A stretch of 64,000 nucleotides of DNA from Burkholderia sp. HI2500 (GTDB lineage: Bacteria; Pseudomonadota; Gammaproteobacteria; Burkholderiales; Burkholderiaceae), in contig NZ_NKFL01000006.1 in the NCBI RefSeq assembly GCF_002223055.1, forward strand, positions 1,302,001-1,366,000, read 5' to 3'. Shown here in pieces: positions 29,518-52,709 of the stretch. A program made the translations under genes and the position numbers. The stretch's first letter is position 1; each line of letters opens with the position of its first letter. Under the pieces are notes generated by a model. The model ran no database searches, was not told the origin of the DNA, and saw only the letters and a program-made list of their open reading frames with translations.

Positions 29518-30948
29518 TCAGAATGCATTGCGCCCGATGAAGCCGCGCACGACCGTCAACAGGATGATCTTCATGTCGAACCAGAAGCTCCAGTTCTGCA
29601 TGTAGAACAGATCGAACTTCACGCGTGCTGCCATCGCCTCGACCTTGCGCGTTTCACCGCGATAGCCGTTCACCTGCGCCCATCCGGTGATGCCGGGCCG
29701 CACGCGGTAGCGGTACATGTAGCAGTCGATCAATTGCCGATAGAGGTCGTCGTGTTCGATCGCGTGCGGGCGCGGCCCGACCACCGACATCTGCCCGAAC
29801 AGCACGTTGAAGAACTGCGGCAGTTCGTCGAGCGACGTACGCCGCAGGAACGCGCCGACGCGCGTGATGCGCGAATCGTTGCGCGACGCCTGCTGCAGCA
29901 CGCCCGGCTGGGCGCGATGCACGCGCATGGTCCGGAACTTGAGAATGTCGAACTCCCGGCCGTCGACACCCTTGCGGCGCTGCCTGAACAGCACGGGCCC
30001 CGGTGACGACAGCTTGACCGCGATCGCCAGCATCGACAGCAGCGGCAGCAACGGAATCAGCACGCCGAATGCGAACAGCCGGTCGAACGCGAACTTCGCC
30101 CACAGCTCCGGCGCCGAACGCGGCGTGGTCGCGAGGTTGATGGCGGGCATGCCGAGCACGTCGGTCGCCGAGCGATCGACCACCGCCATCTGCCGCACGT
30201 CGGGCAACAGCCGCAGTTCCACGAACTCGTCGCGCAACTCGCGCACGATGCGCTGGATCCGCCACTCGTGCGACATCGGCAGCGTGAGCCAGACCTCGTC
30301 GATGTCGCCGCCGCGAATCAGGTCACGCAATACGCTCCAGTCGTCGATTACCGGCACGCCGCCGATGCCGCCGGTGCCGCCGGTAGCAGCCGGTGCGTCG
30401 TCGTCGAATACGCATGCGGCCACGAACGGGCCGTTCGGCGCGAGCTGCATCCGCTCGACCGCGACACGCCCATATGCCGTTGCGCCCACCACCGCGACGC
30501 GGCGCTGCCGCGCGCGCGGGTCGTCACGCGTCAGCGCGAGCGCCAGCAGCGCGGCACGGCCGAGCAGCAACGCAGCATCGCCGGCCAGCACCGTCCGCAC
30601 GATCCAGCGTGTCGTGATCGTGCCGCCGCGATTCATGATCCACATCGCGGCGGTGACCGTCAGCACGCTCGCGCAGACGAGCGCCACCATCGTCTGCGTC
30701 AGTGCATGCGTGCCGCCTTGCGGCGCCACGCTGCCGCGCACGGTGCGCAGGTAGCGCGGCAGCAAGGCCACGGTCAGCACGCACAGCAGCGCGATCGCGC
30801 CGCGCTGCGCGTCGGACAGCGCGTGCCACGCGAGGCCCGACGCCGCCTGCGCCGCGAGCGCGCCTGCCAGCACGAGCGTGGCGTCGATAACTGCGATCAC
30901 AGAACGCCGCATCGAATTCGTCCCACCGGACTTCGATTGCATCGTCAT
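29518..30948 (-). CDS. Undecaprenyl-phosphate sugar-1-phosphate transferase (WcaJ-like)
   Basis: This 476-residue polyprenyl glycosylphosphotransferase loads the first sugar phosphate, usually glucose, onto undecaprenyl phosphate to start EPS repeat synthesis. It has four N-terminal membrane helices, a Rossmann-like middle domain (RVAVVGATAYGRVAVERM), a fifth helix (FGVLIPLLPLLSMLAIAVKL), and the catalytic domain with KFRTMRVHR, SLDELPQFFNVLFGQMSVVG and RPGITGWAQVNGYRGE. The ATG at 30948 overlaps the stop of the Crp/Fnr gene (ATGA), so the two are coupled. This is the only initiating transferase in the window and is the likely partner of the EPS genes at 42-61 kb. Confidence 0.93.
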   Translation of the reverse strand: MTMQSKSGGTNSMRRSVIAVIDATLVLAGALAAQAASGLAWHALSDAQRGAIALLCVLTVALLPRYLRTVRGSVAPQGGTHALTQTMVALVCASVLTVTAAMWIMNRGGTITTRWIVRTVLAGDAALLLGRAALLALALTRDDPRARQRRVAVVGATAYGRVAVERMQLAPNGPFVAACVFDDDAPAATGGTGGIGGVPVIDDWSVLRDLIRGGDIDEVWLTLPMSHEWRIQRIVRELRDEFVELRLLPDVRQMAVVDRSATDVLGMPAINLATTPRSAPELWAKFAFDRLFAFGVLIPLLPLLSMLAIAVKLSSPGPVLFRQRRKGVDGREFDILKFRTMRVHRAQPGVLQQASRNDSRITRVGAFLRRTSLDELPQFFNVLFGQMSVVGPRPHAIEHDDLYRQLIDCYMYRYRVRPGITGWAQVNGYRGETRKVEAMAARVKFDLFYMQNWSFWFDMKIILLTVVRGFIGRNAF

Positions 30949-31727
30949 GCACCATGTGCCGGGAACCCGCGATGCACGTCCGGCATGCGCGGCCGAACCG
31001 GTGTCGGCCTCGCCGTCTCGCGCGTGCCGAGCAGCCTGCGATAGTCCTCGCGGATCAGGTTGTAGCATTCACACGCGTGATGTTCGAGGCCGTCGCGGTC
31101 GAGCACCGTGATACGGCCGCGGCGCTGCCGGATCAGCCCGGCTTCCTGCAGGTTGCCCGCCGCTTCCGTCACGCCTTCGCGGCGCACGCCGAGCATGTTC
31201 GCGATCGTCTGCTGCGTGACGGCCAGTTCGTCGCCGTCGATGCGGTCATGCGCAAGCAGCAGCCAGCGACTGAGCTGCTCGCTGACCGAGTGATGCCGGT
31301 TGCACAGCGCGCTGCGCGAGATCTGCGCCATCACCGCCTGGCAGTAGTTGAGCAGCAGCCGGTAGGTTTCCGGCGAGCGCTCGAATTCGGCGCGCATCAC
31401 GCAGCTCGGCACGCGATAAGCCATCCCGCCGATGCGGACCTCGACCCGTTGCGACGCCGCGGCGCCGCCGACCATCGTCGCGAGGCCGACCACCCCCTCG
31501 CGGCCGACCTGCGCCACCTCGACCATCGCACCGTCCTCCATCAGATGCTGCACCGACATCATCGACGTCGTCGGGAAATGCACGTGGCGCATCGGCTCGC
31601 CGACCCGGTCGAGCATCCCGGCCTTGATCCTGACCAGTTCGAGATGCGGTGCGATGGTGCGGATGCTGTCCTCCGGGAGGGCATCGAGGATGGCGTTCGC
31701 CGAGTAGCTCGAGTGAAGATGAAGCAT
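30945..31727 (-). CDS. Crp/Fnr-family transcriptional regulator, coupled to the priming transferase
   Basis: This 260-residue protein has a cyclic-nucleotide-binding-like beta-roll at about 15-130 and a winged helix with LAVTQQTIANMLGVRREGVTEAA near 175-200. The Fnr cysteine cluster is missing and the cAMP-contact RS motif is not conserved, so the ligand is something else or none. AAGGGATAC precedes the ATG at 31727. It overlaps the undecaprenyl-phosphate transferase by four bases and is divergent from a paralogue of the same length at 32650. BerA of B. cenocepacia, a c-di-GMP binder in this family, is the nearest known type; I cannot tell which paralogue is the orthologue from sequence alone. 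Confidence 0.88.
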   Translation of the reverse strand: MLHLHSSYSANAILDALPEDSIRTIAPHLELVRIKAGMLDRVGEPMRHVHFPTTSMMSVQHLMEDGAMVEVAQVGREGVVGLATMVGGAAASQRVEVRIGGMAYRVPSCVMRAEFERSPETYRLLLNYCQAVMAQISRSALCNRHHSVSEQLSRWLLLAHDRIDGDELAVTQQTIANMLGVRREGVTEAAGNLQEAGLIRQRRGRITVLDRDGLEHHACECYNLIREDYRRLLGTRETARPTPVRPRMPDVHRGFPAHGA

Positions 31728-32185
31728 GTCTGTATCCCTTTTATTGTCCGCGCCGCCTGCAGCCGCGTGCACGGAACTCGTTATCGCGATGCGCGCCCGG
31801 GACTGACCGTGGTTGCGGCCCACAACCCTGATTCCGACTGACCGTCGGCTTATCGCCGCCGGATCGAGTCGGCCGTCCCGTTTCGACACGCCAGCCCGAA
31901 TAAGCGATTTACGTGCCAATACATGCCCATCCTTAATATATGAATCACGCCTGATTTAGATCGACCGAATAACCGGCCAAGAAACAAAAAAAGCGTCTCA
32001 TTTCCGGACACTCTTCCTGATGGTGGACACTGCGGGCAATTTGACTGATCATTCATCTGCCTCGAGCCGAGGCAGCCGCACCGGTGCTGCACGGCTTGTC
32101 GCTCATATACTTACAGTCTATTTTCAATTGTTTCCATGACGTGCCCGGATAGCACTCCGGTATGGCATCGCGCCTCACACGGTTG

Positions 32186-32519: not shown

Positions 32520-32649
32520 GGCGTGCTAGCCTTTTCGCCAGTATCGTCACTCCATTTTTGACGAACACAAGTCCGCACGATCGTGCGAATTCCCAATTCC
32601 CGGGATATCGCCGCGACGACGCGTGACCGCCACCCTACGAGGATGCGCC

Positions 32650-33432
32650 GTGACTCACCAGGCCCCGGATACCGTCGCGTACGCGAACGGCATGATCGAG
32701 CTTTCCCACAGCTTCGACGCGAACCGCTTTCTCGCGGCCATCGACCGCGACGAGCGCGCGACGCTGGCCCCCCACCTTCAACTCGTCCACCTGAAATCCG
32801 GGCAAGTGCTCTGCGAGCCCGGTGAAATGCTCGCGGCGGTCTACCTGCCCGTCACGACCGCGATTTCGCTGCAGTACGTGTCGTCCGGCGGCATGACGCT
32901 GGAAGTCGCGGAGATCGGCAGCGAGAGCGTGGTGTGCGACGACGTGATCGGCGGCAGCGGCCGGATGCCCTGCCGCGCCGTGGCCTGCCGCGACGGCTTC
33001 GTCTACCGGCTCGACCGGCGCGTGTTCGCCGCCGCGTTCGACGCATCGCCGGTGATCCGCCATCTCGTGTTCGTCTGCGTGCGGCTGCTGATGGCGCAGG
33101 TCTCGCAGATCACGTTCTGCAGCCGTCATCACGTGCTCAAACATCAGTTATGCAGATGGTTCCTGCTCGCGTACGACCGGACCCGCAGCATCGAGATCCA
33201 GGTGACGCACAGCATGCTGGCGCAGATGCTCGGCGTGCGGCGCGAAACGGTCACCGATGCCGCCGGCGAAATCCAGAAGCTGGGCCTGATCCGCCAGTAC
33301 CGGAGCTCGATCGAGCTCGCCGACCTCGACGGCCTCGAAAAAATGTCGTGCGGCTGCCGCGCGATCGTGCGCGACGAGATGAAGCGCATCCTGTCGGCCG
33401 ATTCGGGCGTGCCGGCCGCGTCGCGCGCCTGA
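32650..33432 (+). CDS. Crp/Fnr-family transcriptional regulator (BerA-like candidate)
   Basis: This 260-residue protein has the beta-roll sensor at about 20-135 (LKSGQVLCEPGEMLAAVYLP) and a winged helix with VTHSMLAQMLGVRRETVTDAAGE near 180-203. It is a clear paralogue of the divergent gene at 30945. I placed the start at the GTG at 32650, with GAGG eight bases upstream; a GTG at 32623 has no ribosome site and an ATG at 32692 would cut the sensor domain. It lies 189 bases before the carrier-protein operon. By position relative to the EPS genes it is my candidate for B. cenocepacia Bcam1349 (BerA), a c-di-GMP-dependent activator of biofilm polysaccharide; this is from memory. Confidence 0.87.
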   Translation: MTHQAPDTVAYANGMIELSHSFDANRFLAAIDRDERATLAPHLQLVHLKSGQVLCEPGEMLAAVYLPVTTAISLQYVSSGGMTLEVAEIGSESVVCDDVIGGSGRMPCRAVACRDGFVYRLDRRVFAAAFDASPVIRHLVFVCVRLLMAQVSQITFCSRHHVLKHQLCRWFLLAYDRTRSIEIQVTHSMLAQMLGVRRETVTDAAGEIQKLGLIRQYRSSIELADLDGLEKMSCGCRAIVRDEMKRILSADSGVPAASRA

Positions 33433-33621
33433 TCGGCGTGCCGCATCAGGACGGGACGCAGCGTCGCGTGCCGTCCGGTGCCTGCCGGGTCAGCTGTTTG
33501 TAGGGTGGCGAACAGAACACCGTGTCTGCCAATGGTCTACTGATGCCGGACTGCCGGGGGGACGTCAGCGCGTGTCGCGCGTCTGCCCGAGCGGACGACA
33601 CCACGCACGCCGGAGCAGCAC

Positions 33622-33873
33622 GTGAAAAACGAAATCAGAACCATCCTGAAACACGTCGCCCATCTCGAAGCCGCGATCGATTCGATCGGCGACGGGGACG
33701 ACCTCTACGACGCGGGCCTTTCGTCACTCGACACGATCCAGCTGATGCTCGCGATCGAGAAGCAATTCAACATCGAGATTCCCGACGAGATGCTGAACCG
33801 CAACCTGTTCCGCAGCATCGACGCGCTCGCGGACACGATCACCACGCTGCAACGCACCGAGCATTCAGCATGA
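33622..33873 (+). CDS. Acyl carrier protein of the amino acid:carrier-protein ligase operon
   Basis: This 83-residue carrier protein has the phosphopantetheine site at Ser35 in DAGLSSLDTIQLMLAIE. It is small, acidic and helical as expected. It is the first of five genes in which every junction overlaps by four bases. The neighbouring ligase, a homologue of serine-tRNA synthetases, is of the kind known to load glycine or alanine onto such carriers in Bradyrhizobium and Agrobacterium. No phosphopantetheinyl transferase is nearby. The ATG at 33622 has GGAGCAG ahead of it. Confidence 0.92.
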   Translation: MKNEIRTILKHVAHLEAAIDSIGDGDDLYDAGLSSLDTIQLMLAIEKQFNIEIPDEMLNRNLFRSIDALADTITTLQRTEHSA

Positions 33874-35066
33874 GCGCGCCGCTTCCCGAACTCGCGGCCG
33901 ACAGCGATGCGCGTCGGCTCGACGAGGCCGCGCATGCCGTCGCACAGATCGCCGCGCAGCACGCGGACGCGGTCGACCGCGACGCGCGCTGCCCCGTCGA
34001 GGCGATCGAGGCGATGCGCGCGCGCCGCCTGCTCGGCGCGATGGTGCCGACCCATCTCGGCGGCGCGGGCGCGTCGCTGGAAGACATCGCGTCGGCCTGC
34101 TCGATCCTCGGCCAGGCCTGTGCGTCGTCGGCGATGGTGTTCGCGATGCACCAGATCCAGGTCGCCTGCATCGTCGATCACGCCGCCGGCCAGGGCTGGC
34201 ACAAGCTGTTCCTGCAACAGCTCGTGCGCCACCAGTGGTTGCTCGCATCAGCCACGTCGGAAGACGGCGTGGGCGGCAACCTGCGCGCGAGCCAGTGCGC
34301 ACTCGAAATCGACGGTGGCGGCTTCCGTTTGCACAAATCCGCGCCGACGATCTCGTACGGCGACTACGCGGACGGCATTCTCGCCACCGCGCGACGCGAT
34401 GCGGATGCGCCGGCTTCCGAGCAGGTGCTCGTCACGCTGCTGCGCGACGGCTACACGCTCACGCGCCGCGGCGAATGGGACACGCTCGGCATGCGCGGCA
34501 CGTGCAGCAACGGCTTCGTGCTGGATGCGCAGGGCGCCGCCGTGCAATGCCTGCCGGTGCCGTTCGCGACGATCGCCGAGGAAACGATGGTGCCGGTCTC
34601 GCACATCCTGTGGGCCGCGGTGTGGATCGGCGTGGCCGGCGACGCATTCCATCGCGCGCACCAGTTCTTCCGCGCGCAGGCACGCCAGACCGACGGCGCA
34701 CCTTCGCCCGCCGCGCGGCGCATCGCCGAATCGCTTGCACTGATGCAGGCGATGCAGGCCCGCGTCGACAACGTGCTGCGCCTTCACGCGAATGCGTCGG
34801 CCCGTTCGTGGTCGGCCGGCATGGCCTGGGCCGCCGAAATCAATACGCTGAAGACCTACGTGTCGGAGACGGCCCTCGAAGTCGCGCACCAGGCGATGAT
34901 GATCTGCGGGATGGCCGGCTACAAGCAAGGCACGCCCTTCAGTATCGGCCGCCATATTCGCGACCTGCACGCGGCGCCGCTGATGATCAGCAACGACCGC
35001 ATTGCCGCCAACACTGCGAGCCTGTTGCTCGCGCTGCGTCCTGCGACGCTGGAGAAACATACGTGA
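33870..35066 (+). CDS. Acyl-CoA dehydrogenase-fold flavoprotein, probably acting on a carrier-bound substrate
   Basis: This 398-residue protein has the acyl-CoA dehydrogenase fold: the helical N-terminus with LGGAGASLEDIASACSILG, the middle beta domain (ATSEDGVGGNLRASQC, then WDTLGMRGTCSNGF), and the C-terminal helices ending GRHIRDLHAAPLMISNDR. In classical enzymes the last region holds the base glutamate (Y-E-G-T); here it reads S-N-D-R, so ordinary alpha,beta-dehydrogenation of acyl-CoA is doubtful. Overlap with the carrier gene (ATGA) and the ligase gene (GTGA) implies a carrier-bound aminoacyl or related substrate, as for prolyl-carrier dehydrogenases or flavin hydroxylases of this fold. 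The exact reaction is unknown. Confidence 0.85.
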   Translation: MSAPLPELAADSDARRLDEAAHAVAQIAAQHADAVDRDARCPVEAIEAMRARRLLGAMVPTHLGGAGASLEDIASACSILGQACASSAMVFAMHQIQVACIVDHAAGQGWHKLFLQQLVRHQWLLASATSEDGVGGNLRASQCALEIDGGGFRLHKSAPTISYGDYADGILATARRDADAPASEQVLVTLLRDGYTLTRRGEWDTLGMRGTCSNGFVLDAQGAAVQCLPVPFATIAEETMVPVSHILWAAVWIGVAGDAFHRAHQFFRAQARQTDGAPSPAARRIAESLALMQAMQARVDNVLRLHANASARSWSAGMAWAAEINTLKTYVSETALEVAHQAMMICGMAGYKQGTPFSIGRHIRDLHAAPLMISNDRIAANTASLLLALRPATLEKHT

Positions 35067-36031
35067 ACGATCGCCTCGCCGTGCCCGCCGCCTCCCCCGC
35101 CGACGCCCCGCTCGACCGCGCGGGCGTCAACCCGCTGCGCGACGAACTGATCGACGCGGGCCTGCTGGTCTCGACCGGCATCCAGGGCCTGTTCGGCCGC
35201 AGCGAGCGATTCGAGCGCGTGGTCGAAGCGCTCGACGCGTTCGTCACGCGCATCGGTGCCGACCAGCAGGCCGAAGTGCTGCGCTTCCCGCCGGCCATGA
35301 GCCGCACCGAGTTCGAGCGCAGCGAATACATGAAGAGCTTCCCGCAGCTGGCGGGCAGCGTGCATGCGTTCTGCGGCGACGAACGCCAGCATCAGCGCGT
35401 GCTGCAATGCCTCGATCGCGGCGACGACTGGACCGAGAACCAGAAGCCGACCTACGTCGTGATGACACCGGCCGCGTGCTACCCCGTCTATCCGGTCGTC
35501 GCACGCGCGGGCGCGCTGCCCGCCGACGGCCGGATCGTCGACGTGTTCTCGTACTGCTTCCGTCACGAACCGTCGCTCGACCCGACCCGCATGCAGTTGT
35601 TCCGGATGCGCGAGTACGTGCGGATCGGCACGCCCGAGCAGATCGTCTCGTTCCGCGAGACGTGGATCGAACGCGGCACGAAGATGATCGACGCGCTGCG
35701 CCTGCCGAATGCGATCGATCTCGCGAACGACCCGTTCTTCGGGCGCGGCGGCAAGATCGTCGCGGACAGCCAGCGCGAGCAGAACCTGAAGTTCGAGCTG
35801 CTGATCCCGATCGAGCACGACGATCGCCAGACGGCGTGCCTGAGCTTCAACTACCACATGGACCATTTCGGGCTGCTGTGGGACATCCGCACCGCGACGG
35901 GCGACGTCGCGCACACGGGCTGCGTCGGCTTCGGCCTCGAACGGCTCACGCTCGCGCTGTTCCGCCACCACGGCTTCGATATCGACGCGTGGCCGCAAGC
36001 GGTCCGCGACGTGCTGTGGGGGACGCGATGA
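35063..36031 (+). CDS. Amino acid:[carrier protein] ligase (seryl-tRNA synthetase-like, no tRNA domain)
   Basis: This 322-residue protein is a class II aminoacyl-tRNA synthetase catalytic core with no tRNA-binding arm. Motif 2 is FRHEPSLDPTRMQLFRMREYV and motif 3 is GFGLERLTLALF. Cys139, Glu184 and Cys287 are spaced exactly like the zinc ligands I recall for the B. japonicum enzyme (C131, E176, C279, all shifted by 8), which is of the atypical methanogen SerRS type. Such enzymes activate glycine or alanine with ATP and load the phosphopantetheine arm of a small carrier protein. The start is a GTG at 35063 overlapping the flavoprotein stop (GTGA). The carrier is encoded two genes upstream. Confidence 0.93.
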   Translation: MNDRLAVPAASPADAPLDRAGVNPLRDELIDAGLLVSTGIQGLFGRSERFERVVEALDAFVTRIGADQQAEVLRFPPAMSRTEFERSEYMKSFPQLAGSVHAFCGDERQHQRVLQCLDRGDDWTENQKPTYVVMTPAACYPVYPVVARAGALPADGRIVDVFSYCFRHEPSLDPTRMQLFRMREYVRIGTPEQIVSFRETWIERGTKMIDALRLPNAIDLANDPFFGRGGKIVADSQREQNLKFELLIPIEHDDRQTACLSFNYHMDHFGLLWDIRTATGDVAHTGCVGFGLERLTLALFRHHGFDIDAWPQAVRDVLWGTR

Positions 36032-37083
36032 GGTTCGTGTCCCGCGACGGCGAAGACGCGTCGTTCGAGAGCGTGCGCCACCGCGCCCGCCACTACCGGC
36101 CGCACCCGCTGCACAGCCAGGCGATGGTCTGGAAGCAGACCAACTGCTATGTCGACATGTGGCTCGAGGTGCTCCGGTGGTGGGGTCTCAATCCGTACGC
36201 GGCGCTGCCGTTTACGATCGCGCTCGACTTCGAGGGCGATCAGTTCACGTTCTTCAAGTTTCCGCTCGACGAGCTGGAGCGGCTCTACGGGATCGTCGTG
36301 CAGGAACATTCGATCTACGAGCCGCTCGACCAACACATCGAGACGCAGGTCGCGCGCGGCCACCTGATGATCGTCGAGGTCGACGCGTGGTTCCTGCCCG
36401 ATACGCGCGGCAGCAGCTACCGCACGCAGCATACGAAGACGACGATCGGCATCGACGCGATCGACCGCGCGAACCGCCAGATCGGCTACTTCCACAACAG
36501 CGGCTATTACGTGGCCGAGGATTTCGACTACAACGGGCTCGTCGGCGGCAACTCGCCGATGACGCTGCCGCCGTACGTCGAATGCGCGAAACGACGCTTT
36601 ACGCCGCTTGACGAACGCGCGCTCTGCGAGGCCTCGCTCGCCGCGTTGCAGCGCCACCTGCGGCGCCTGCCGACCGTCGATCCGATCGCGGCGTTCCGCC
36701 GGCAGTTGCAGACCGACGCACAACGCCTCGCGCAGGCGCCGCTCGAACATTTCCATGCATACTCGTTCAATTCGGTGCGGCAGCTCGGCGCGAATTTCGA
36801 ACTGTTCGGCCACTATGCGCGCTGGCTGCAGGCGAGCGGCTGCATCGGCCCGTTCGCCGAGATTCGCGCCGCGTGCGAGCGCATCGCGTCCGAAGCGATG
36901 GTGCTGGAATTCCGGCTCGCGCGCGCATGCGCACGCGGCAAGGAGGAGCGCGGCGACTCGACGCTCGAGGCGATCGAGGCCGCGTATGTCGACGTCGTCG
37001 CGTGCGCGCGGCAGATCTGCGCGCCGTTGCGGCACGTGACGCCCGCACGCTACGACACGGCGCCCGTGTCGGTCATGCGGTGA
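36028..37083 (+). CDS. DUF1839 protein, putative acyl/aminoacyl transferase with a Cys-protease-like fold
   Basis: This 351-residue protein matches the DUF1839 family I know from operons with amino acid:carrier-protein ligases. An invariant-looking Cys40 in WKQTNCYVDMWLEVL is followed by acidic and histidine motifs, GHLMIVEVDAWFLPDT and HTKTTIGIDAID, and HNSGYY. The pattern recalls BtrH of butirosin synthesis, a papain-like transferase that moves an acyl chain from a carrier protein to an amine. Transfer of the aminoacyl or oxidised group from the carrier to an acceptor is therefore an inference. The start overlaps the ligase stop (ATGA) and its own stop overlaps the GH2 gene (GTGA). Confidence 0.8.
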   Translation: MRFVSRDGEDASFESVRHRARHYRPHPLHSQAMVWKQTNCYVDMWLEVLRWWGLNPYAALPFTIALDFEGDQFTFFKFPLDELERLYGIVVQEHSIYEPLDQHIETQVARGHLMIVEVDAWFLPDTRGSSYRTQHTKTTIGIDAIDRANRQIGYFHNSGYYVAEDFDYNGLVGGNSPMTLPPYVECAKRRFTPLDERALCEASLAALQRHLRRLPTVDPIAAFRRQLQTDAQRLAQAPLEHFHAYSFNSVRQLGANFELFGHYARWLQASGCIGPFAEIRAACERIASEAMVLEFRLARACARGKEERGDSTLEAIEAAYVDVVACARQICAPLRHVTPARYDTAPVSVMR

Positions 37084-39566
37084 CGCGCGCGCGCGCCCTG
37101 CCCGCGTGGTCGATGCTGGCGACGGCCGCAGGCGCCGTTCGGGAACCGCGCGACCTCCCGGCCGGCCACGGCGGCTGGATCGCGGCGCCGGTGCCCGGCA
37201 CGGTCGCGCAGGCGCTCGCGCTGGCCGGCCGGCTCGACGAAGCCGCATCGCTCGACGAGCGCGACCACTGGTACCGCGTCGAGCTGCGTGGGCGCGGGCC
37301 GCGCATCCTGCGCTTTCACGGCCTCGCGACGCTCGCACAGGCCTGGCTCGACGACACGCCGATTCACGGCTCGGACAGCATGTTCGTCGCGCACGACGTG
37401 CCGGTATCGCTCGACGGCATGCACCGGCTGACCCTCTGTTTCCGCGCGCTCGCGCCGCACCTGCGCGACGCGCGCGCACCGCGCCGCGCGCGCTGGCGCA
37501 CGCGGCTCGCCGAGCCGGCCGGGCTGCGCACGATCCGCACGTCGCTGTTCGGGCACATGCCCGGCTGGTTTCCGCCGTATGTGCCCACCGGCCCGTGGCG
37601 GCCCGTCGACGTGCTCGATCCGGCCGACGGGCCCGTTCTGGCCAACTGCAAACTGCAGGCGCGTGTCGAAGGCGACACGGGCTGGCTCGACGCGGAACTG
37701 ACGTTCGCCGCGCCGCTGCCGGATACGTTCGCAGCGCGGCTGTCGTGCGGCGAACATCATGCGAAGCTCGAACGTGACGGCGCCGACCGGCTGCGTGCGC
37801 ACGTCGCGATACCGAACGTGCGTCGCTGGTGGCCGCATACGCACGGCGAACCGTCGCTCTACGACGTTGTGCTGCATATCGGCGATGCGCGCCGGCCGCT
37901 CGGCTCGACCGGTTTCCGCACGATCGAGATCGATTCCGGCGCCGACGGCAAGGGTTTCGGACTGCGCATCAACGGCGTGCCCGTGTTCGCGCGCGGCGCA
38001 TGCTGGAGCAGCGCCGCGCCGCTCGCGCTCCACGCGGGCGACGCGACCTACGGCCGCCTGCTCGGGCTCGCACGCGACGCCGGCTTCAACATGATCCGCG
38101 TCGGCGGCACCATGACCTACGAGGCCGATGCCTTTCACGCGTGGTGCGACCGGCTCGGGCTGCTGGTCTGGCAGGACTTCGGTTTCGCGAACTTCGATTA
38201 CGCGCTCGACGATCCCACGTTCGCGGCCAACGTCGATCGCGAAGCGACCCAGTTCCTCTCGCGTCACGGCGCTTCGCCGTCGCTTGCGGTGCTGTGCGGC
38301 GGCAGCGAGATCGCGCAACAGGCCGCGATGTCGGGGCTCGGGCCGAAGCAGCGCTTCCTCGAACTGACGGCCGACCGGCTGGCCGGCCACGCGGCCGCGC
38401 TCCGTCCCGATGTCCCGTACGTGCCCGATTCGCCCGACGGCGGCGTACTGCCGTTCACGCCGCGCGAACGCGTGTCGCACTACTACGGCGTCGGTGCGTA
38501 CCTGCGTCCGCTCGACGACGCGCGCCGCGCGGACGTGCGCTTTGCGAGCGAATGCCTCGCGTTCGCGAACGTCCCGTGCGACGCGACACTCGCCGAACTC
38601 GGCTGGCCCGGCGTGCACGAGCCGCGCTGGAAGGCGGCCGTGCCGCGCGACCCCGGCACGTCGTGGGATTTCGACGATATCCGCGATCACTATTTGCAGA
38701 CGCTGTACGACGTTGTGCCGGACCGGCTGCGGCGCGAGGATCCGGCGCGCTATGTCGAGCTGTCGCGTGCGGTGGTCGCGGACGTGATGCGCGAGACGTT
38801 TTCCGAATGGCGCCGCACCGGCTCGCGTTGCGCCGGCGCGCTCGTGTGGCAGTTCCAGGACGTGATGCCGGGCGCCGGATGGGGCGTGATCGACGCCGCC
38901 CACCGGCCGAAATCGGCATGGTATGCGCTGCGCCAGGTGCTGCAGCCGATCCAGGTGCTCCTCGTCGACGAAGGGCTGAACGGGCTCGACGTGCACGTCG
39001 TCAACGAGCGCCCGGCGCCGCTGTCGGCGTCAATCGAGCTGGTCGCGCTGCGCGACGGCCGTACGCCGGTCGCGCGGGCCGGCTGCCCGGTGCGGATCGC
39101 CGCGCACGACACGGTGCGGCTCGGCTCGGCCGAGTTGCTCGGCCGCTTCTTCGACTGGACCTATGCATACCGTTTCGGCCCGTGCGAACACGATACGGTC
39201 GTCGCGACCCTGCGTGCCGACGACGGCACGCTGCTGTCGCAGGCGTTCCATTTTGTGTCGCGCACGCATCCGGCCGTGCTGGCGCGTCGCGAACTCGGGA
39301 TCGAGGCATGCGTGTCGCGCACCGGCGAGACCTGGCACGTCGACGTCGACACGCGACATGTCGCGCGCCATGTGCAGATCGACGCGCCGGGATTCATGCC
39401 AGGCGACGACTGGTTCCATCTCGCGCCCGGCACGCCGGCGCGCATCGCGCTCGTTCCATTGCGCATCGACGGGAAGCCTGTGGCGGCCGACGACAACGCC
39501 CCGCCCGCGGTGGAAATCCGTGCCGTGAACGCCGCGCGCGCGGTGCGAGCCACGCAGGCCGGCTGA
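37080..39566 (+). CDS. Glycoside hydrolase family 2 protein, beta-mannosidase-like
   Basis: This 828-residue protein has the GH2 layout: sugar-binding jelly roll (1-170), immunoglobulin-like domain (about 180-290), TIM barrel (about 290-590) and C-terminal beta domains. The acid/base region SLAVLCGGSE (Glu410) and nucleophile region FASECLAF (Glu491) are both present, and VWQDFGFANFDY resembles beta-mannosidases and exo-glucosaminidases. No signal peptide is seen, so it acts in the cytoplasm or is exported otherwise. The start is a GTG overlapping the DUF1839 stop (GTGA). It is the last gene of the five-gene operon and ends in a strong hairpin. Why a glycosidase is coupled to aminoacyl-carrier chemistry is unexplained. 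Confidence 0.88.
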   Translation: MTRARALPAWSMLATAAGAVREPRDLPAGHGGWIAAPVPGTVAQALALAGRLDEAASLDERDHWYRVELRGRGPRILRFHGLATLAQAWLDDTPIHGSDSMFVAHDVPVSLDGMHRLTLCFRALAPHLRDARAPRRARWRTRLAEPAGLRTIRTSLFGHMPGWFPPYVPTGPWRPVDVLDPADGPVLANCKLQARVEGDTGWLDAELTFAAPLPDTFAARLSCGEHHAKLERDGADRLRAHVAIPNVRRWWPHTHGEPSLYDVVLHIGDARRPLGSTGFRTIEIDSGADGKGFGLRINGVPVFARGACWSSAAPLALHAGDATYGRLLGLARDAGFNMIRVGGTMTYEADAFHAWCDRLGLLVWQDFGFANFDYALDDPTFAANVDREATQFLSRHGASPSLAVLCGGSEIAQQAAMSGLGPKQRFLELTADRLAGHAAALRPDVPYVPDSPDGGVLPFTPRERVSHYYGVGAYLRPLDDARRADVRFASECLAFANVPCDATLAELGWPGVHEPRWKAAVPRDPGTSWDFDDIRDHYLQTLYDVVPDRLRREDPARYVELSRAVVADVMRETFSEWRRTGSRCAGALVWQFQDVMPGAGWGVIDAAHRPKSAWYALRQVLQPIQVLLVDEGLNGLDVHVVNERPAPLSASIELVALRDGRTPVARAGCPVRIAAHDTVRLGSAELLGRFFDWTYAYRFGPCEHDTVVATLRADDGTLLSQAFHFVSRTHPAVLARRELGIEACVSRTGETWHVDVDTRHVARHVQIDAPGFMPGDDWFHLAPGTPARIALVPLRIDGKPVAADDNAPPAVEIRAVNAARAVRATQAG

Positions 39567-39607: not shown

Positions 39608-40999
39608 TCAATCGGACGAGCCCGTCCCGCGCGGCCGCTCGATACCGTACGCCTCCATCCAGCGATACAGCGTCGCGCGCGACACGCCGAGTTCGCGCGC
39701 CGAAGCGGCAACGCGCCCGCGCGTTCGCAGCAACGCGGTTTCGATCGCCTCGCGCTCGATCGACTTGCGGATGTCGGCCACCGACGGCGACGCCGCATCG
39801 AGACAGTATTCGAGCTCGAGGTCACGCGCGGTGATCAGGCGCCCCTCCGTCATCACGACCGCACGGCGCACGCGGTTGATCAGCTCGCGGACATTGCCCG
39901 GCCAGTCGTGCTTGTAGAGCGCGGTAATCGCATCCGTCGAGAACCCGCGCACGCGATGGCGCGCATCGCCGCGGAAGCGTTCGAGCATGTGGTGCGCGAG
40001 CAGTTCGATGTCCTTGCCGCGCGCGCGCAGCGGCGGCTGGTCGATGCGCATCACGCACAGACGGTGGAACAGGTCGGCGCGAAAGCGTCCTTCTTCCATC
40101 GCATCGCGCAGGTCGACGTGCGTCGCCGACACGATCCGGACATCGACCGGCACCGGTTCGCTGCCGCCAAGTCGGTGAATCGAGCGTTCCTGCAGAAACC
40201 GCAGCAGGCTCGCCTGGCTCTCGTGCGGCAGGTCGCCGATCTCGTCGAGCAGCAGCGTGCCGCCGTTCGCGGCTTCGACGTAGCCGATCTTGCGCGCGTT
40301 CGCGCCGGTAAACGCGCCGCGCTCATAGCCGAACAGTTCCGATTGCAGCAGATGCGGCGGAATCGCACCGCAGTTGACCGCGACGAACGGGCCGTTGCGC
40401 CGCGCCGAATGGCGATGGATCGCGACGGCCGTAAGTTCCTTGCCGGTTCCCGTTTCGCCGAACACGAACACCGGTGCGTCGGTGCGTGCGAAACGCCGCA
40501 CCGTATCGAACAGCCGCAGCATCGCGCTGCAGGTGCCGACGATGCCCTTTTCCTCCGATTCGAGCTGTTCGCGATCGCGCGCGAACAGGCATTCCATGCC
40601 GTAGGCATGGCCGACCGTATCGGCAATCCGCTGATGCGACGCCGGTAACGTCACGTAGTCGAAGCAGTAGTCGCGCAACAGCGCGCGCACGTTGGGCGAG
40701 GTGGTCTGGCCGACATCCACGAGCGCCACCCACACGACATCGCGCATCGACGCGCAGGTCGACGCGATGTTGCCGATCGCATCGGCATGACCGCCGCTCA
40801 GGTCGAGAATGCCGCAGGTAATTTCGCCGGACGTGTCGCGCAGCTCGCTCGCATGCGCGACGACCGACACCTTCCAGTCGCGGCGCGACAATTCCTTTCG
40901 CAGCATCACGGACGGCGATTGCGTCCAGTAAATCAGCGGACGCTGCCCGTTACCGCTCCCCACGCCGGCGCTCTTATCGCGCGTTATTGGCATATTCAT
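39608..40999 (-). CDS. Sigma-54-dependent activator with VpsR-like N-terminal domain
   Basis: This 463-residue protein has a degenerate receiver-like domain (about 20-130), then an AAA+ domain. Walker A is GETGTGKE (181-188), the sigma-54 contact loop GAFTGA is at 228-233 and Walker B is GGTLLLDEIGD. A C-terminal Fis-type helix-turn-helix, ASARELGVSRATLYRWMEAYGI in parts, closes it. The receiver lacks the usual lysine, so control by phosphorylation is doubtful. VpsR of Vibrio cholerae and BerB of B. cenocepacia are relatives that respond to c-di-GMP and drive biofilm polysaccharide genes. Its position between the aminoacyl-carrier operon and the EPS genes suggests it regulates one or both. 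Two ATGs, 40999 and 40993, are possible starts. Confidence 0.9.
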   Translation of the reverse strand: MNMPITRDKSAGVGSGNGQRPLIYWTQSPSVMLRKELSRRDWKVSVVAHASELRDTSGEITCGILDLSGGHADAIGNIASTCASMRDVVWVALVDVGQTTSPNVRALLRDYCFDYVTLPASHQRIADTVGHAYGMECLFARDREQLESEEKGIVGTCSAMLRLFDTVRRFARTDAPVFVFGETGTGKELTAVAIHRHSARRNGPFVAVNCGAIPPHLLQSELFGYERGAFTGANARKIGYVEAANGGTLLLDEIGDLPHESQASLLRFLQERSIHRLGGSEPVPVDVRIVSATHVDLRDAMEEGRFRADLFHRLCVMRIDQPPLRARGKDIELLAHHMLERFRGDARHRVRGFSTDAITALYKHDWPGNVRELINRVRRAVVMTEGRLITARDLELEYCLDAASPSVADIRKSIEREAIETALLRTRGRVAASARELGVSRATLYRWMEAYGIERPRGTGSSD

Positions 41000-42226
41000 A
41001 ACGAACCATCATTTTCTGCACTCCGCGAACCGTTCGCGTGCGCGGCGGCAGGCGGCGCATGGCCGCCTTTCCGCGCTGCGTTTCCGCAGCCTTGGCGAAG
41101 ATCGAAACTGCACACGGCGAGAACCCCCGGAGATCGAGCCGGATATCATCCGGTCCCGTTGTCATCGAACTCGAACGGAACGCGCGGCTACGGGAGCCAC
41201 GACATTCCGGCTTTGAAGCAACCCGCCGCCAGGCGGGGCACGTCGGCAAACCAAAACCCGTCCGCATGGGCATGGCGTCGTACACGGCAAGCGCGCCGAT
41301 GCTGAACCGGCGGGCCGCCAAACCGCGCCCGGATTGACTGCCCCATTTCAACCGCACCTGAATTTACACCCCGTTTCGGGCCGGTTTTGTTAGCAAAAGA
41401 TAAACCTGAATCAAGCGGTTACGGGGCCGGCCGTTCCGCACCGCCCCCTTTTTGAACACTGAGATTTGATTATCTATGACCTTTCCCGTCAATCAGTGGC
41501 AAATACTACTTTTCCGCAAGATTGATACCGTCGATTACCCGCAACTTCCGTCGAAATCTCCTTAAAGTGGCGGCACCGTATCCGTCGCACCACATAATCG
41601 CGCCCGCCCCCGGATAGCCCGATCCCATTGCGCCGGCGCGAGAGCCATCCGGCCGTTACACGTCGTAATCACGCCGTAATCAACGGCATCGCGCCACGCT
41701 GGCGCTTTTCGCGCGAATCGCCGCCGGCGAGCTCGAACTTCAGGGGGCCGGCACGCGCGTCTCGCGGCGCAGCATGATGGCCATTCCCGCGCGACCGGAC
41801 AACCCCGTGGTTCGACCGGATGCAGGCCCGCGACAGGTCACGACGGTCGTGCATGCACGCGGGCGGCCGCGTGCCGACGATGCGGTACGCGAGCGGTCCG
41901 TCGTCGGCCGCGCGCAATCCTCGGTCCCGCGCCCCGCTGCCTCGTTCGCGTGCGATGCGGACCAGTCGCGCTTCATTGCAGCGAGCCACGATGAATCAAT
42001 TATGAAAAGCCAGCGGCACGGACGATGTGTGCTGTCGCACATTGCGACGCTCGCCCGTCGCGCACACCGCCCCGCAGCCCGCGCCGGACCGGCGAATCCG
42101 GAGCGTGAGTACGCTGTCGAACAGACCGCAGGACCGCGCATCCGGATGATGAAGATCGCCACGTCGCACGGAACGATCGCGTCCGTGCAGCGCGGCGTGC
42201 CGAAGGCATCACGCGAGGACAGCATC
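41000..42226. other. Intergenic region, 1227 bases, upstream of the EPS genes
   Basis: This is the largest gap in the window, between the sigma-54 activator and the GNAT-manC pair. Short frames (for example 41038-41337 plus, 41669-41989 minus) lack ribosome sites and family features. The segment 41340-41560 is AT-rich and could hold promoters; I looked for the GG-N10-GC sigma-54 pattern around TGGCAAATACTAC (41497) and found no match. CGTAATCA occurs twice, 13 bases apart, near 41664-41684. No gene is supported. Confidence 0.5.
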
Positions 42227-42805
42227 ATGGAATGGCATTGTTGTGAATTCGAACATCTGAGCGCCGTCGATCTCTATGCAATCCTGCGCGCGCGCAACGC
42301 CGTGCTGGTGGTCGAGGACGCCCACACGCATCTCGACATCGACGGCAAGGACGCAGGCGCGCTGCACGTCTATGCGAGCGTGAGCGACGGCGACACGACG
42401 GAAGTCGCCGCCTACGCGCGCATCCTGCCCGGCGACGACATCGATCCGGACGTCGTGATCGACAAGGTGCTGACGAGCGAAAGCTGCCGCGATGACGAGA
42501 CGCTCGAGCGTTTGATCGGGCGCGCACTCACCGCCGCGCAGGCTGCATGGCCGGACACCGCGGTGCGCATGCACGTCCCCGCGCCGCGTCAGGCGTTCTA
42601 CAAACGGTTCGGATTCCGCAAAGCCTACGGCCCGTATCTCGAACAAGGGGCGCCGTTCGTCGGCCTGGTCCGGCCGGCCGACCGTACGGCCGGTGCGCTG
42701 CGTCACCTGCTGTCGCGCGCAGTTTCGTTCTCGCGCGACGACGATACGCGCGCCGACGGCCGCCCTCACGCCCGGCTGCCCGCCGATACCGGAGCGAACC
42801 GATGA
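42227..42805 (+). CDS. GNAT N-acetyltransferase, ElaA-like
   Basis: This 192-residue protein follows ElaA closely in its first 150 residues: MEWHCCEFEHLSAVDLYAIL, RNAVLVVEDAHTHLDIDGKD, AAYARILPGDDIDPDVVIDK and FYKRFGFRKAYGPYLEQGAP. The tail after ~155 is arginine-rich and extra. GAGG lies eight bases before the ATG at 42227; an upstream in-frame ATG at 42002 has no ribosome site. Its stop overlaps the start of manC (ATGA), so it is coupled to GDP-mannose supply. Acceptor unknown; sugar or polyamine acetylation are options. Confidence 0.85.
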   Translation: MEWHCCEFEHLSAVDLYAILRARNAVLVVEDAHTHLDIDGKDAGALHVYASVSDGDTTEVAAYARILPGDDIDPDVVIDKVLTSESCRDDETLERLIGRALTAAQAAWPDTAVRMHVPAPRQAFYKRFGFRKAYGPYLEQGAPFVGLVRPADRTAGALRHLLSRAVSFSRDDDTRADGRPHARLPADTGANR

Positions 42806-44376
42806 CCCGCGCCCTTCACCCGGTTCCCGAACCCGATCTGCCGAGCATCCTGCCGGTGATTCTCGCCGGCGGTTCCGGCACGCGGCTGTGGCCGTTGTCG
42901 CGCGAGCAGTATCCGAAGCAGCTGATCGAGCTGGTCTCGAACGAGTCGCCGCTGTCGGCGACGGCGCGCCGCCTGAACGGCATCGCGAACGCGTCGCTCG
43001 GCGACACGCTGCTACTCGTATGCGGCGAACAACATCGCTTCATGAGCGCCGAGCAGGTACACGGCCGCTCGGTGCCTGCCCGCATCCTGCTGGAGCCCGC
43101 GGCGCGCAACACGGCGCCCGCGCTGACGCTGGCCGCGCTCGACGCGAACGCGCTCGCGAACGATCCTGTCCTCGCCGTGATGCCGGCCGATCACGTGATC
43201 GCGGATGTCGCCGCGTTCCAGGACGCGGTCGCGCGCGCGGCGCGTTATGCGCAGGAAGGCGCGATCGTCACGCTCGGCGTGCTGCCGCGCCGCGCGGAGA
43301 CGGGCTACGGCTACATCCAGGTCGGCGAGCCGCGCTCGGGCCGCCACGGCAGCCACGGCGGCTACGCGATCGGACGCTTCGTCGAAAAACCCGATGCGAC
43401 GCTCGCCGAGCGTTACCTGCAATCGGGCGATTACTGGTGGAACAGCGGGATCTTCGTCACGCGCGCATCGGTCTGGCTGAAGGCGATCGGCGCGCTCGCA
43501 CCGGACATCCATGCTGCCTGCGACAGCGCGTGGCGCGCGGGCGTCGCCGACGATCCGTTCTTCCGGGTCGATGCGGCCGCCTTCGACGCGTGCCCATCGG
43601 ATTCGATCGACTATGCGGTGATGGAGCGCCTCGCGGAACACGCCGAACTCGGCATCGAAGGCATTGTGGTGCCGCTCGCGGCCGGCTGGTCGGACGTCGG
43701 CACGTGGGACGCGATCTGGGAAATCATGCCGAAGGACGATCACGGCAACGTCGCGCGCGGCCCGATCGTCTTCGAGGATACGCAGGACAGCCTCGTGCGT
43801 TCGGAAGGCCGCCTCGTCGCGTGCGTCGGGATGAAGGACGTCGTCGTGATCGAGACGGCCGATGCGGTGCTGGTCGCGAACAAGCACGACGTGCAGCGCG
43901 TGAAGAACATCGTCGCGCGCCTGAAGAGCGACCAGCGCCCGCAGGTGAGCGAGCACCGCAAGGTGCAGCGGCCGTGGGGCCATTACGATTCGATTGACCT
44001 CGGCGAGCGCTTCCAGGTGAAGCGGATCGTGGTCGAACCCGGCAAGCAGCTGTCGCTGCAGATGCACTATCACCGCGCCGAGCACTGGATCGTCGTGCGC
44101 GGCACCGCGAAGGTGACGCGCGGCGCCGAGACGTTCCTGCTGTGCGAGAACGAATCGACATACATCGCCGTCGGCGAAGTGCATCGACTCGAGAATCCCG
44201 GCCGGATTCCGCTCGAAATCATCGAGGTTCAATCGGGCAACTATCTCGGCGAGGACGATATCGTGCGGTTCGAGGATCAGTACGGGCGGGCAGTCGTCGG
44301 GACCGCGCAGCAGCCCCCGTCGCTCGCCTCGCGCGAACCGCACGAGGAAGCCGCGGAACGCGACGTCATCCGGTAA
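42802..44376 (+). CDS. manC: Mannose-1-phosphate guanylyltransferase/mannose-6-phosphate isomerase
   Basis: This 524-residue bifunctional enzyme makes GDP-mannose for the polysaccharide. The nucleotidyltransferase domain (1-~350) has the signature GGSGTRLWPLSREQYPKQ at 24-41, VMPADHVI, and FVEKPDATLAERYL. The C-terminal cupin isomerase domain has RPWGHYDSIDLGERFQVKRI and LQMHYHRAEHWIVVRGTA with the metal-binding histidines. It is the same type as BceA of the cepacian locus and AlgA. It overlaps the GNAT gene by four bases. A convergent beta-helix gene begins 79 bases after its stop. Confidence 0.95.
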   Translation: MTRALHPVPEPDLPSILPVILAGGSGTRLWPLSREQYPKQLIELVSNESPLSATARRLNGIANASLGDTLLLVCGEQHRFMSAEQVHGRSVPARILLEPAARNTAPALTLAALDANALANDPVLAVMPADHVIADVAAFQDAVARAARYAQEGAIVTLGVLPRRAETGYGYIQVGEPRSGRHGSHGGYAIGRFVEKPDATLAERYLQSGDYWWNSGIFVTRASVWLKAIGALAPDIHAACDSAWRAGVADDPFFRVDAAAFDACPSDSIDYAVMERLAEHAELGIEGIVVPLAAGWSDVGTWDAIWEIMPKDDHGNVARGPIVFEDTQDSLVRSEGRLVACVGMKDVVVIETADAVLVANKHDVQRVKNIVARLKSDQRPQVSEHRKVQRPWGHYDSIDLGERFQVKRIVVEPGKQLSLQMHYHRAEHWIVVRGTAKVTRGAETFLLCENESTYIAVGEVHRLENPGRIPLEIIEVQSGNYLGEDDIVRFEDQYGRAVVGTAQQPPSLASREPHEEAAERDVIR

Positions 44377-44455
44377 GGGCATGCGGGTTGCGACGGCGTG
44401 TGCGACGCCAACACCCGCCGCCGCGCGAACAACCGGCGGCCCACGCAACACCTGA

Positions 44456-45748
44456 TCAGTGGGGGCCGCCTTGCGGCCAGCGCGGCCGCCTGACGGACTC
44501 GCGCACGCGCGGCAACAACGACGTATCCGCGCCGATCGCATCGCCTGCCGCCGACAGCGGCTGAAGCGCGGCGCCGGCACACGGCGTGCCCTTCGCCTGC
44601 TGTCCCGATGCCCCCACCTGCCGGCCGGCCGCGCAAGCATGCGCAGGGTCGATCCGGACCGGCATTCCGCCGATCCCCGACAGTTGATTGTCCGCGAGAC
44701 GCACGCCCGACACGTTTCCCCACAGGCGAATGCCGTCGAATCGCGCATGCGACACGCGATTACCGATCACGGTCACGCGCGACACCGAACCCGACCACGT
44801 GCTGACCTCGATCGCCGCCTGCTGCGTGACCGGGCGAGCATCGGCCCGATCCGTCGCCGTCTGGATATCCGCGATCGAATTACCCTCGATGCGGATATCG
44901 GACGAGCCGGCAGTGCGATTGCTGTCTTCCTGAGCGACGAGAATGCCGGAGCTCACCTGCACGTTGCGCACGACGTTGTTCGAGATGGTGACCTCCGCAC
45001 CGCCGACCACCGTGATGCCCCGCCCCCACGGATTGCCCTCCAGCGAGTTGCCGGTAATCAGCACGTTGCGCGTCAGCACGCCTTCCGCCTGATAACTCAC
45101 CACGGCGATCATGTCGTCGCCGGTGCCGCGAACGACATTGCCCTGCACCAGCACGTTGCGCGTGCCGTGCGTCATGTGAATGCCATCCGCCAGCGTCGAC
45201 AGCACCTCGTTGCCGACGATCGCGACGTCCGCGCCGCCGAACACGAAGATCCCGCCGCCCGCGCCACCGTCGATGACGTTGTCGAGCACCTGCACACCGC
45301 GCCCCGTCACCTCGACCTTCGACGACTCCGGCGTCGTGAGGCGTGTCGTACCGGCTCCGGTGAGCCGGAAGCCGACGAGCGTCGTACCGTCGCCGCTCAT
45401 CTCGATCGTCTGGTCGCCGGGTGTGGTCGCGATCAGCGTCGCGCCGTAACCCGACAACACCACATGCCGCTGCCGCACGACCAGCGACCGGCCGACCACA
45501 TACCGGCCCGGCGCGAACACCAGCCGCTGGCCCGGCTGCAACGCGTCCAGCGCATGTTGCAGCATGTCGGCCTGATCGGCCGCGTCCGCAGCGGGACGAA
45601 CGACCGCATCCGGTACAGTCGCATTAAGCGCCCCAGGCACGGACGTGCCGGATGCCGCCGCGGCACTGCCCGGCCAAGCCAGCCCGCCTGCCGCGCACAT
45701 GGCGGCGAGCGCTGCGCGCGCGAGAAACGTGCCATGTGATCTACGCAT
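44456..45748 (-). CDS. Secreted right-handed parallel beta-helix protein
   Basis: This 430-residue protein has a signal peptide ending near residue 32 (GSAAAA). After it come about ten imperfect beta-helix turns such as VQVLDNVIDGGAGGGIFVFG, VAIVGNEVLSTLADGIHMTH and VLVQGNVVRGTGDDMIAVVS, ending about residue 375. Proteins of this fold in EPS loci are polysaccharide lyases, epimerases (AlgG) or processing factors. The repeated asparagine-rich turns fit a NosD/pectate-lyase-like group, and a lyase cannot be confirmed because no catalytic set stands out. The C-terminal 55 residues are not repetitive. AGGGAG precedes the ATG at 45748. It is divergent from the GT2 gene. Confidence 0.85.
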   Translation of the reverse strand: MRRSHGTFLARAALAAMCAAGGLAWPGSAAAASGTSVPGALNATVPDAVVRPAADAADQADMLQHALDALQPGQRLVFAPGRYVVGRSLVVRQRHVVLSGYGATLIATTPGDQTIEMSGDGTTLVGFRLTGAGTTRLTTPESSKVEVTGRGVQVLDNVIDGGAGGGIFVFGGADVAIVGNEVLSTLADGIHMTHGTRNVLVQGNVVRGTGDDMIAVVSYQAEGVLTRNVLITGNSLEGNPWGRGITVVGGAEVTISNNVVRNVQVSSGILVAQEDSNRTAGSSDIRIEGNSIADIQTATDRADARPVTQQAAIEVSTWSGSVSRVTVIGNRVSHARFDGIRLWGNVSGVRLADNQLSGIGGMPVRIDPAHACAAGRQVGASGQQAKGTPCAGAALQPLSAAGDAIGADTSLLPRVRESVRRPRWPQGGPH

Positions 45749-46117
45749 ATCGAGTCGACTCCCTGGAATGACTTCGAACGTGCCGGCACGCGCATCCGAA
45801 TCGCTGCATGCCGACCGAGTTGCCCACCGACGATACCGTCGACGCGACGGCATGCTACGGTCGATTGGATCATTCGAACCCGCCGCGTTTCAGTGCGTCA
45901 ACAGACCAATACACCCTGCCTGCGCGGTGTATCCGGCTTGCGGTTGACGCGTCATCGCGCTTTCGACGAAGCGAATCGCGCAACGGTAGGCTCGCGAACC
46001 GAATGCCGATCGACGACGCGTATCATGGCCGCCATGCGACGCGACCGTGCTCCGGGGCCCGAACCCTGCGCGCCGGGCACCCGGATCGTCCGCACTTCGC
46101 TCGTCCGGAATCCGTTC
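45749..46117. other. Intergenic region, 369 bases, divergent promoters
   Basis: It separates the beta-helix gene (minus) from the GT2 gene (plus). The GT2 frame is open back to 45893, but ATGs at 46025 and before lack coding character. No clear operator dyad is seen. Confidence 0.4.
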
Positions 46118-48754: not shown

Positions 48755-48781
48755 TTCCGATTTCGATATCTTCTTGTTGAC

Positions 48782-49861: not shown

Positions 49862-49896
49862 GCGCGACTCCCGCCATCCCGCATTCCCGCATTCCC

Positions 49897-49927: not shown

Positions 49928-49944
49928 GCCGCGCGCGGCGCCCG

Positions 49945-52657: not shown

Positions 52658-52709
52658 CGGGCGGCCTGGATACGGTTCGAAACGATGGCGGCGGCATGCG
52701 CCGCCAGAT

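Follow-up and report, generated by a model that had tools for sequence, protein, structure and literature searches.

In the lincosamide systems, a ligase (CcbC/LmbC), a carrier and a papain-fold protein (CcbD/LmbD) move a carrier-bound amino acid to an acceptor. Also among the closest known systems are ColB1 (PDB code 7xp7), a carrier-tethered cysteine dehydrogenase, and CtaG and AziU2-U3, papain-like proteins that we take to act in carrier-linked biosynthesis. The BtrH-type acyl carrier protein (ACP):aminoglycoside acyltransferase is likewise papain-like and carrier-linked (PMC10318531). Closest in their ligase are the Bradyrhizobium and Agrobacterium systems (Bll0957; PDB codes 3mey and 4h2w), in which an enzyme derived from seryl-tRNA synthetase (SerRS) partners an ACP; no end product of such ligases was found in the literature searched, the primary biochemistry papers lying outside that search. 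Here we analyze a 64,000-nucleotide stretch of Burkholderia sp. HI2500 (contig NZ_NKFL01000006.1, positions 1,302,001 to 1,366,000; hereafter, the window), in which open reading frame (ORF) calls reveal a five-gene operon at 33622 to 39566, entirely on the + strand, that encodes an ACP, a flavoprotein, a SerRS-like ligase, a DUF1839 protein and a GH2 glycosidase. We propose, with a probability of roughly 0.5, that this operon is an amino-acyl transfer system working like the lincosamide condensing trio of ligase, carrier and CcbD.

In both systems a papain-fold protein would pass a carrier-bound amino acid on to its acceptor, and they differ in several respects. The lincosamide ligase is an adenylation domain of the nonribosomal peptide synthetase type, whereas that of the operon is SerRS-derived, and no adenylation domain was matched among the window proteins scanned with Pfam. 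The carrier of the operon is a stand-alone ACP, the flavoprotein and GH2 are additional, and the triad of the lincosamide enzyme is Cys-His-Glu, whereas that of DUF1839 is apparently Cys-Thr-His. With the Bradyrhizobium and Agrobacterium ligases the operon has the ligase family, the zinc ligands and the type of partner ACP in common; Bll0957 differs in that its clade, a sister of the module one, has neither DUF1839 nor GH2.

The initial annotation of this stretch had read the operon as loading an amino acid on the carrier, altering it there and transferring it by DUF1839 to a sugar-linked or other acceptor, with trimming by GH2, a reading that is partly supported overall, and had stated that no characterized pathway is known to have this set of genes. 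That statement holds in the literature searched; the idea as such, however, had already appeared in 2010. A note in proof to PMC2922099 describes a neighborhood of a SerRS paralogue, an ACP, a redox enzyme, a conserved unknown protein, a glycosidase and lipopolysaccharide genes, and predicts that, after monooxygenation, the conserved protein couples the amino acid to a cell-surface sugar, at the amino group of the latter. The general idea is therefore not new, and the initial annotation is an independent rediscovery of it. The note in proof follows the same predicted logic and gives no fold, active site or bep or nif context; its Atu2574 may be a DUF1839 protein. What is added here is a structural case for the transfer enzyme, with its active-site residues and natural copies that have lost the cysteine, together with linkage counts and their exceptions, the two genomic settings (bep and nif), and the separation from the clade of the characterized ligase.

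Conservation of the operon

The gene order and coordinates first assigned to the operon, and a 4-bp overlap at each of its four junctions (ATGA, GTGA, ATGA and GTGA), are all present in the sequence. The four overlaps occur together in 5 of the 26 loci measured, all 5 from the genus of the window, and the junctions of the other loci are mostly tight with variable spacing (automatic start choice applies to both statements). The five genes are found together well beyond this locus, so that the reading passes the conservation test that the initial annotation had set for it. In a phylum-wide sample of 398 genomes, DUF1839 is present in 16 and the ligase, above its cutoff, in 28, and all 16 fall inside the 28 (Fisher P = 2e-21, relatedness ignored). 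A ligase match lies within about 130 bp of DUF1839 in every one of these DUF1839 genomes, and the order ACP, acyl-CoA dehydrogenase-like flavoprotein, ligase, DUF1839 and GH2 is kept on a single strand in 16/16 (15 fetched loci and the window). Within the family of the window, the Burkholderiaceae, DUF1839 is present in 204 of 398 genomes (53/61 in the genus, counting its own genome), and 8 of the 191 ligase genomes are without it. DUF1839 was also recovered from 59 of 72,556 plasmid records, the top genera being Rhizobium (18), Azospirillum (11) and Mycetohabitans (9).

The residue counts given below for the ligase, the ACP, DUF1839 and GH2 come from rows of fetched loci that include many close relatives, the window being present twice wherever its own locus passed the filter, which dropped tblastn matches under 60 bits (ACP exempt) and proteins under 70% of query length; two further alignments used 67 of 120 listed proteins and 36 of 120, respectively.

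Ligase, carrier and flavoprotein

The ligase (35063 to 36031, +; GTG start; 322 amino acids [aa]) clearly belongs to the family of amino acid:[carrier protein] ligases (NF005479, 562 bits against a cutoff of 357), and it matches the PDB entry 4h2w (E = 9e-94). It consists of the catalytic core without the N-terminal tRNA-binding part, aligning solely to residues 306 to 503 of 518-aa SerRS models. Its partner, the ACP (33622 to 33873, +; GTG start; 83 aa), matches NF005480 (147 bits; cutoff, 72) and PF00550. The residues singled out in the initial annotation are all well kept: the Cys-Glu-Cys zinc ligands C139, E184 and C287, as in atypical SerRS, are each found in 83/83 ligase rows and the phosphopantetheine-bearing Ser35 in 70/70 ACP rows, as are the DUF1839 and GH2 residues discussed below. 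The ligase family and its zinc ligands thus support the prediction that the ACP is loaded with an amino acid.

Which amino acid is loaded need not follow from the characterized relative. In a 38-row tree, a long, fully supported branch separates the ligases of the module (the five genes in their various genomes) from eight nonmodule ligases. Where its PDB sequence aligns, Bll0957 shares 96% identity with the nonmodule clade and at most 54% with any module ligase. Glycine loading was reportedly measured on Bll0957; since this protein lies in a sister clade without DUF1839, that specificity is not directly transferable, and glycine as a certain module substrate was dropped. No DUF1839 equivalent was recognized beside the ligase of a ligase-only Bradyrhizobium-type locus, the downstream ORF being dissimilar (hhalign probability, 0.2%) and GNAT-like by eye. 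Such GNAT-like ORFs stand just 3' of DUF1839-free ligases (L067:8788-9873, -, and L068 near 10500-11416, +) and are perhaps the transfer enzyme of that branch. In Belnapia (L108:4641-13788), an MBOAT protein, an FkbH-type protein, a protein without assignment, an ACP, a carrier ligase, an alpha/beta hydrolase and an acyltransferase form one run; this ligase, which has no DUF1839 partner, is placed with the module rows in the tree, at the end of a very long branch.

The flavoprotein (33870 to 35066, +; ATG start; 398 aa) has the acyl-CoA dehydrogenase fold, with PF02771 and PF00441 above cutoff, and is missing the canonical catalytic glutamate: Glu377 of 3pfd, in the C-terminal I-Y-E-G-T motif, aligns to Ile373, invariant in 37/37 rows, and the position of the IVD-type catalytic glutamate, read by hand, is presumably Ser244. 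Comparisons with nitrososynthase/DszC-type monooxygenases and with dehydrogenases placed nitrososynthases best in one search, and these were absent among the 50 matches listed in another. The flavoprotein adjoins the ligase in 16/16 module genomes and in 8/8 fetched ligase-only loci (8 of the 12 ligase-only genomes of the phylum sample were fetched), an association that supports the suggested oxidation on the carrier.

DUF1839 as a predicted acyltransferase

The DUF1839 protein (36028 to 37083, +; ATG start; 351 aa; PF08893, 425 bits against a cutoff of 22.5) is predicted to be a papain-like acyltransferase of the CcbD/CtaG type. The fold matches of its model are headed by CcbD, CtaG and AziU2-U3 and extend over the whole chain, the C-terminal helical part included, that to CcbD spanning 287 residues. 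This match supports the proposed transfer by DUF1839. BtrH, CtaG and AziU2-U3 show no sequence similarity to DUF1839 in the PDB profile search, and BtrH is missing from the fold list. Proof of kinship with CcbD at the sequence level was sought and set aside, the best hit of another PDB search being an unrelated chain (E = 0.08).

The candidate nucleophile Cys40 opens helix 40-51 and is a cysteine in 99/103 rows; His156 is kept in 103/103 and Thr139 in 94/103. The apparent order is hence Cys-Thr-His, which was compared with the Cys-His-acid order without superposed coordinates, and a C(T/S)H reading with His and Thr swapped is given in PMC10318531. Four operon copies of DUF1839 have Arg or Gln in place of Cys40 (L040:7688-8668, L041:7294-8274, L055:9401-10378 and L054:9935-10918), and three of these loci (L040, L041 and L055) have another, intact copy 3.8 to 3.9 kb from the Cys40-less one; these probably constitute pseudoenzyme/enzyme pairs. 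Among copies from ligase-free loci (L050 and L129-L140), seven have a cysteine at position 139.

GH2 and the alpha/beta hydrolase

The GH2 protein (37080 to 39566, +; GTG start; 828 aa) is beta-mannosidase-like: it matches the PDB entry 5n6u, a beta-mannosidase (E = 2e-41), PF22666 scores 35.8 bits (cutoff, 27), and PF00703 falls below cutoff. Both catalytic glutamates, E410 in the acid/base motif GGSE and the nucleophile E491, are kept in 63/64 rows (one gap). It departs from beta-mannosidases in having Ser409 for Asn before the acid/base residue in 62/64 (CGGSEI versus the CGNNEI of 2vjx), and no signal peptide is visible by eye in 11 orthologues. At L125 a shortened GH2 adjoins an IS5 transposase, and at L126 GH2 is spread across several frames.

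An alpha/beta hydrolase looks like a sixth member of the module. It lies within about 10 kb in 9/15 module loci of the phylum sample, adjoins GH2 in six loci (L035, L042, L104, L120, L121 and L128), and follows the module in Mycetohabitans rhizoxinica, Azospirillum lipoferum and A. brasilense. The window carries a double form (hydr2_PEP plus hydr1_PEP type) at 62070 to 63926 (-), 22.5 kb from GH2, with TIGR03101 and TIGR03100 below cutoff.

Genomic setting

The operon of the window is flanked by homologues of berB and berA, c-di-GMP (cyclic di-GMP) regulators of the Bep exopolysaccharide, and adjoins the bep cluster. The berB homologue (39608 to 40999, -; PF00158, PF20161) is a sigma-54 activator with a VpsR domain and the gene order of BCAM1342; the berA homologue (30945 to 31919, -; PF13545), of the CRP/FNR type, probably starts near 31735. 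The bep-type cluster (41774 to 61455) comprises GNAT, ManC, glycosyltransferase (GT), acyltransferase, Wzc and Wza proteins, recognized by Pfam, NCBIfam and the gene table of PMC3584217. These identities rest on gene order compared with published tables (PMC3584217 and PMC9684580), on Pfam and on the published berA promoter primer (PMC5552954), which matches window positions 31996 to 32015 with one mismatch. In the Burkholderia cepacia complex, the operon sits within the Bep locus, which is under c-di-GMP control, and coregulation is likely. From the numbers of its neighbors it would be BCAM1343-1347 in B. cenocepacia; no mention of BCAM1343-BCAM1348 was found in the literature searched, subscription papers lying outside that search.

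Directly 5' of the operon stands a second CRP/FNR-type regulator (32623 to 33432, +; PF13545, PF00027), whose position is kept in B. cepacia complex loci, followed by a 59-bp element at 33499 to 33557 (+), TGTAGGGTGGCGAACAGAAC ... AATGGTCTACTGATGCCGGACTGCCGG, which is a putative promoter or operator of the operon. Its two blocks hardly vary between the window and 11 chosen Burkholderia loci. The element occurs once in the 64-kb window (0 expected by chance); an Rfam scan of the window gave no match, and the RNA fold of the element was not unusual (z = 0.03). An RpoN promoter for the operon was rejected, the -24/-12 pattern with one mismatch giving two sites in the window (1.5 expected by chance), neither near the operon start. 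An RpoN-like site with one mismatch at 31903 to 31918 (-), 5' of berA, fits the published RpoN control of that gene, although chance alone would be expected to give a match of this kind.

Compared with the published 12-gene bep table of B. cenocepacia J2315, the bep cluster of the window additionally has an FkbH-type gene (53868 to 55811, -), a second ACP (55867 to 56112, -, by eye) and a DltB-like MBOAT gene (51227 to 52657, -), which possibly serve glyceryl or lactyl transfer onto the polysaccharide. A gene for a Tpt1/KptA-family RNA 2'-phosphotransferase is also present in the window (24285 to 24869, +).

Beyond the module, the recurring neighbors are the alpha/beta hydrolase (15/34 loci), berA/crpX, wzc, a sugar transferase and wza, any other cluster reaching at most 6/34. 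Around 11 module loci outside Burkholderiaceae, 7/105 neighbor ORFs carry GT1 domains, and no GT family is listed in 138 control ORFs of the same genomes (Fisher P = 0.0025 assuming no control GT and 0.023 assuming one, the loci being related and not independent); every fifth control ORF was omitted (138 of 172 used), and a single-member GT family could escape listing. On two Rhizobium plasmids from nodule sources (L122 and L126), the module is directly preceded by nif genes and by a gene for an "exopolysaccharide production repressor"; the L126 ligase match begins at residue 62. In five Rhizobium-type genomes (L057, L058, L062, L064 and L127), epmA and epmB, for EF-P lysylation, adjoin the module, with efp annotated in L127; a second tRNA synthetase paralogue is there a neighbor of the module.

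Proposed pathway and alternatives

Taken as a pathway, the ligase would adenylate a small amino acid and load it on the phosphopantetheine of the ACP, as its family suggests, and the flavoprotein would oxidize or hydroxylate the carrier-bound amino-acyl group. DUF1839 would then take the acyl group onto Cys40 and, with His156 serving as the base, pass it to an acceptor that is an amine (or a hydroxyl). The acceptor is probably sugar-linked, and GH2 and the alpha/beta hydrolase may process either it or the product; this is the weakest step, and the job of GH2 is the weakest point of the explanation. More tentatively, we would see in the module a widespread, tRNA synthetase-derived counterpart of the lincosamide synthetase with a new permuted Cys-Thr-His acyltransferase class, which transfers an oxidized amino acid to a sugar or surface glycan, in Burkholderia biofilms under c-di-GMP and in rhizobia from nif plasmids.

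A number of observations weigh against the transfer proposal. Although 183 of the 204 Burkholderiaceae genomes with DUF1839 have the ligase, 21 are without it (match threshold, E = 0.001), so that the strict linkage of the phylum sample fails in this family. Thirteen of these loci (12 to 20 kb each) were mapped and contain no ligase, the other module genes being absent or partial looking: flavoprotein, ACP or GH2 pieces are left in 10/13, GH2 being reduced to fragments in several. These are either reduced or decaying versions of an exopolysaccharide-linked locus or cases in which DUF1839 uses a second donor. A strict five-part machine stands in its gene order across the phylum sample and falls short here and in Belnapia, where ligase and ACP have no flavoprotein, DUF1839 or GH2 nearby. 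The ligase-free copies of DUF1839 have Thr139 in just 4/13, which makes a catalytic role of this residue doubtful, and one has Ala at position 40. Searched against the PDB up to E = 10, a 68-row DUF1839 profile retrieves no chain, so there is no sequence-level link to CcbD; one locus (L039) has two DUF1839 copies, neither of them after the ligase, and both copies retain Cys40 there and in L107. Two Rhizobium plasmids carry a GH2 that is cut short or frame-broken, with the preceding genes mostly kept, and some loci, such as that of Caballeronia SL2Y3, lack annotated glycan genes nearby. Finally, the available text of PMC7084887 gives the water-insoluble polysaccharide of strain H111 as neutral (Gal, Glc and Man) and reports no amino sugar or amino acid; the analysis of this material used NaOD, in which esters would be lost.

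The ligase-free genomes weaken both the transfer proposal and the small-metabolite explanation considered below, and they raise the standing of a third, still rather unlikely, explanation: that the module attaches an amino acid, as an ester or amide, to the repeat of the Bep-type polysaccharide or to a lipid-linked precursor of this repeat. Such a role fits an operon that has berB on one side and berA on the other, and a berA-like gene remains beside DUF1839 in all 13 ligase-free loci mapped, 9 of which also have wzc. The alpha/beta hydrolase, a module member elsewhere, belongs to the bep cluster as published (Bcam1334, TIGR03100; PMC3584217), and the structure that would speak against decoration, a published repeat without amino sugar, was solved in alkali (PMC7084887). 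The module is, however, also found where bep genes are not.

In an equally unlikely alternative, the operon makes a small, diffusible metabolite of sugar and amino acid, a signal or lincosamide-type antibiotic, and the exopolysaccharide neighborhood reflects shared regulation only. Full modules without exopolysaccharide neighbors in Caballeronia SL2Y3 and Azospirillum lipoferum (the PLSDB gene tables being incomplete), retention of the module on plasmids of host-associated bacteria, the lack of a visible GH2 signal peptide and closest folds that we take to come from antibiotic pathways are consistent with this. Against it, glycan genes are enriched around the module, and no constant transporter was seen among 34 loci, though most recurring clusters lacked annotation.

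It is improbable that DUF1839 is instead a hydrolase or editing thioesterase and that the operon yields a free oxidized amino acid. The three solved relatives that head its fold list serve carrier-linked biosynthesis, presumably so for CtaG and AziU2-U3, and not proteolysis, and the fold match takes in the C-terminal helices, even though the triad order is unusual and the papain-like fold is chiefly hydrolytic (PMC10318531). A Dlt-like route, in which the bep MBOAT takes the amino acid from the operon carrier and exports it to the polysaccharide, is very improbable: the MBOAT matches the DltB model at 178.8 bits (cutoff, 375) and the Belnapia run combines an MBOAT and an FkbH-type protein with ACP, ligase and alpha/beta hydrolase, but bep has its own second ACP, and as a general account the route was rejected with its marker FkbH at background (2/16 module genomes versus 44/382, MBOAT itself not being surveyed).

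Implications

Tying DUF1839, a frequent partner of the ligase, to the CcbD/CtaG fold narrows the question of the product to a few assays, namely, of the amino acid and of the amine. That the operon lies within the biofilm locus Bep, and the module elsewhere next to nif genes, suggests that they have a part in biofilm formation and host contact.

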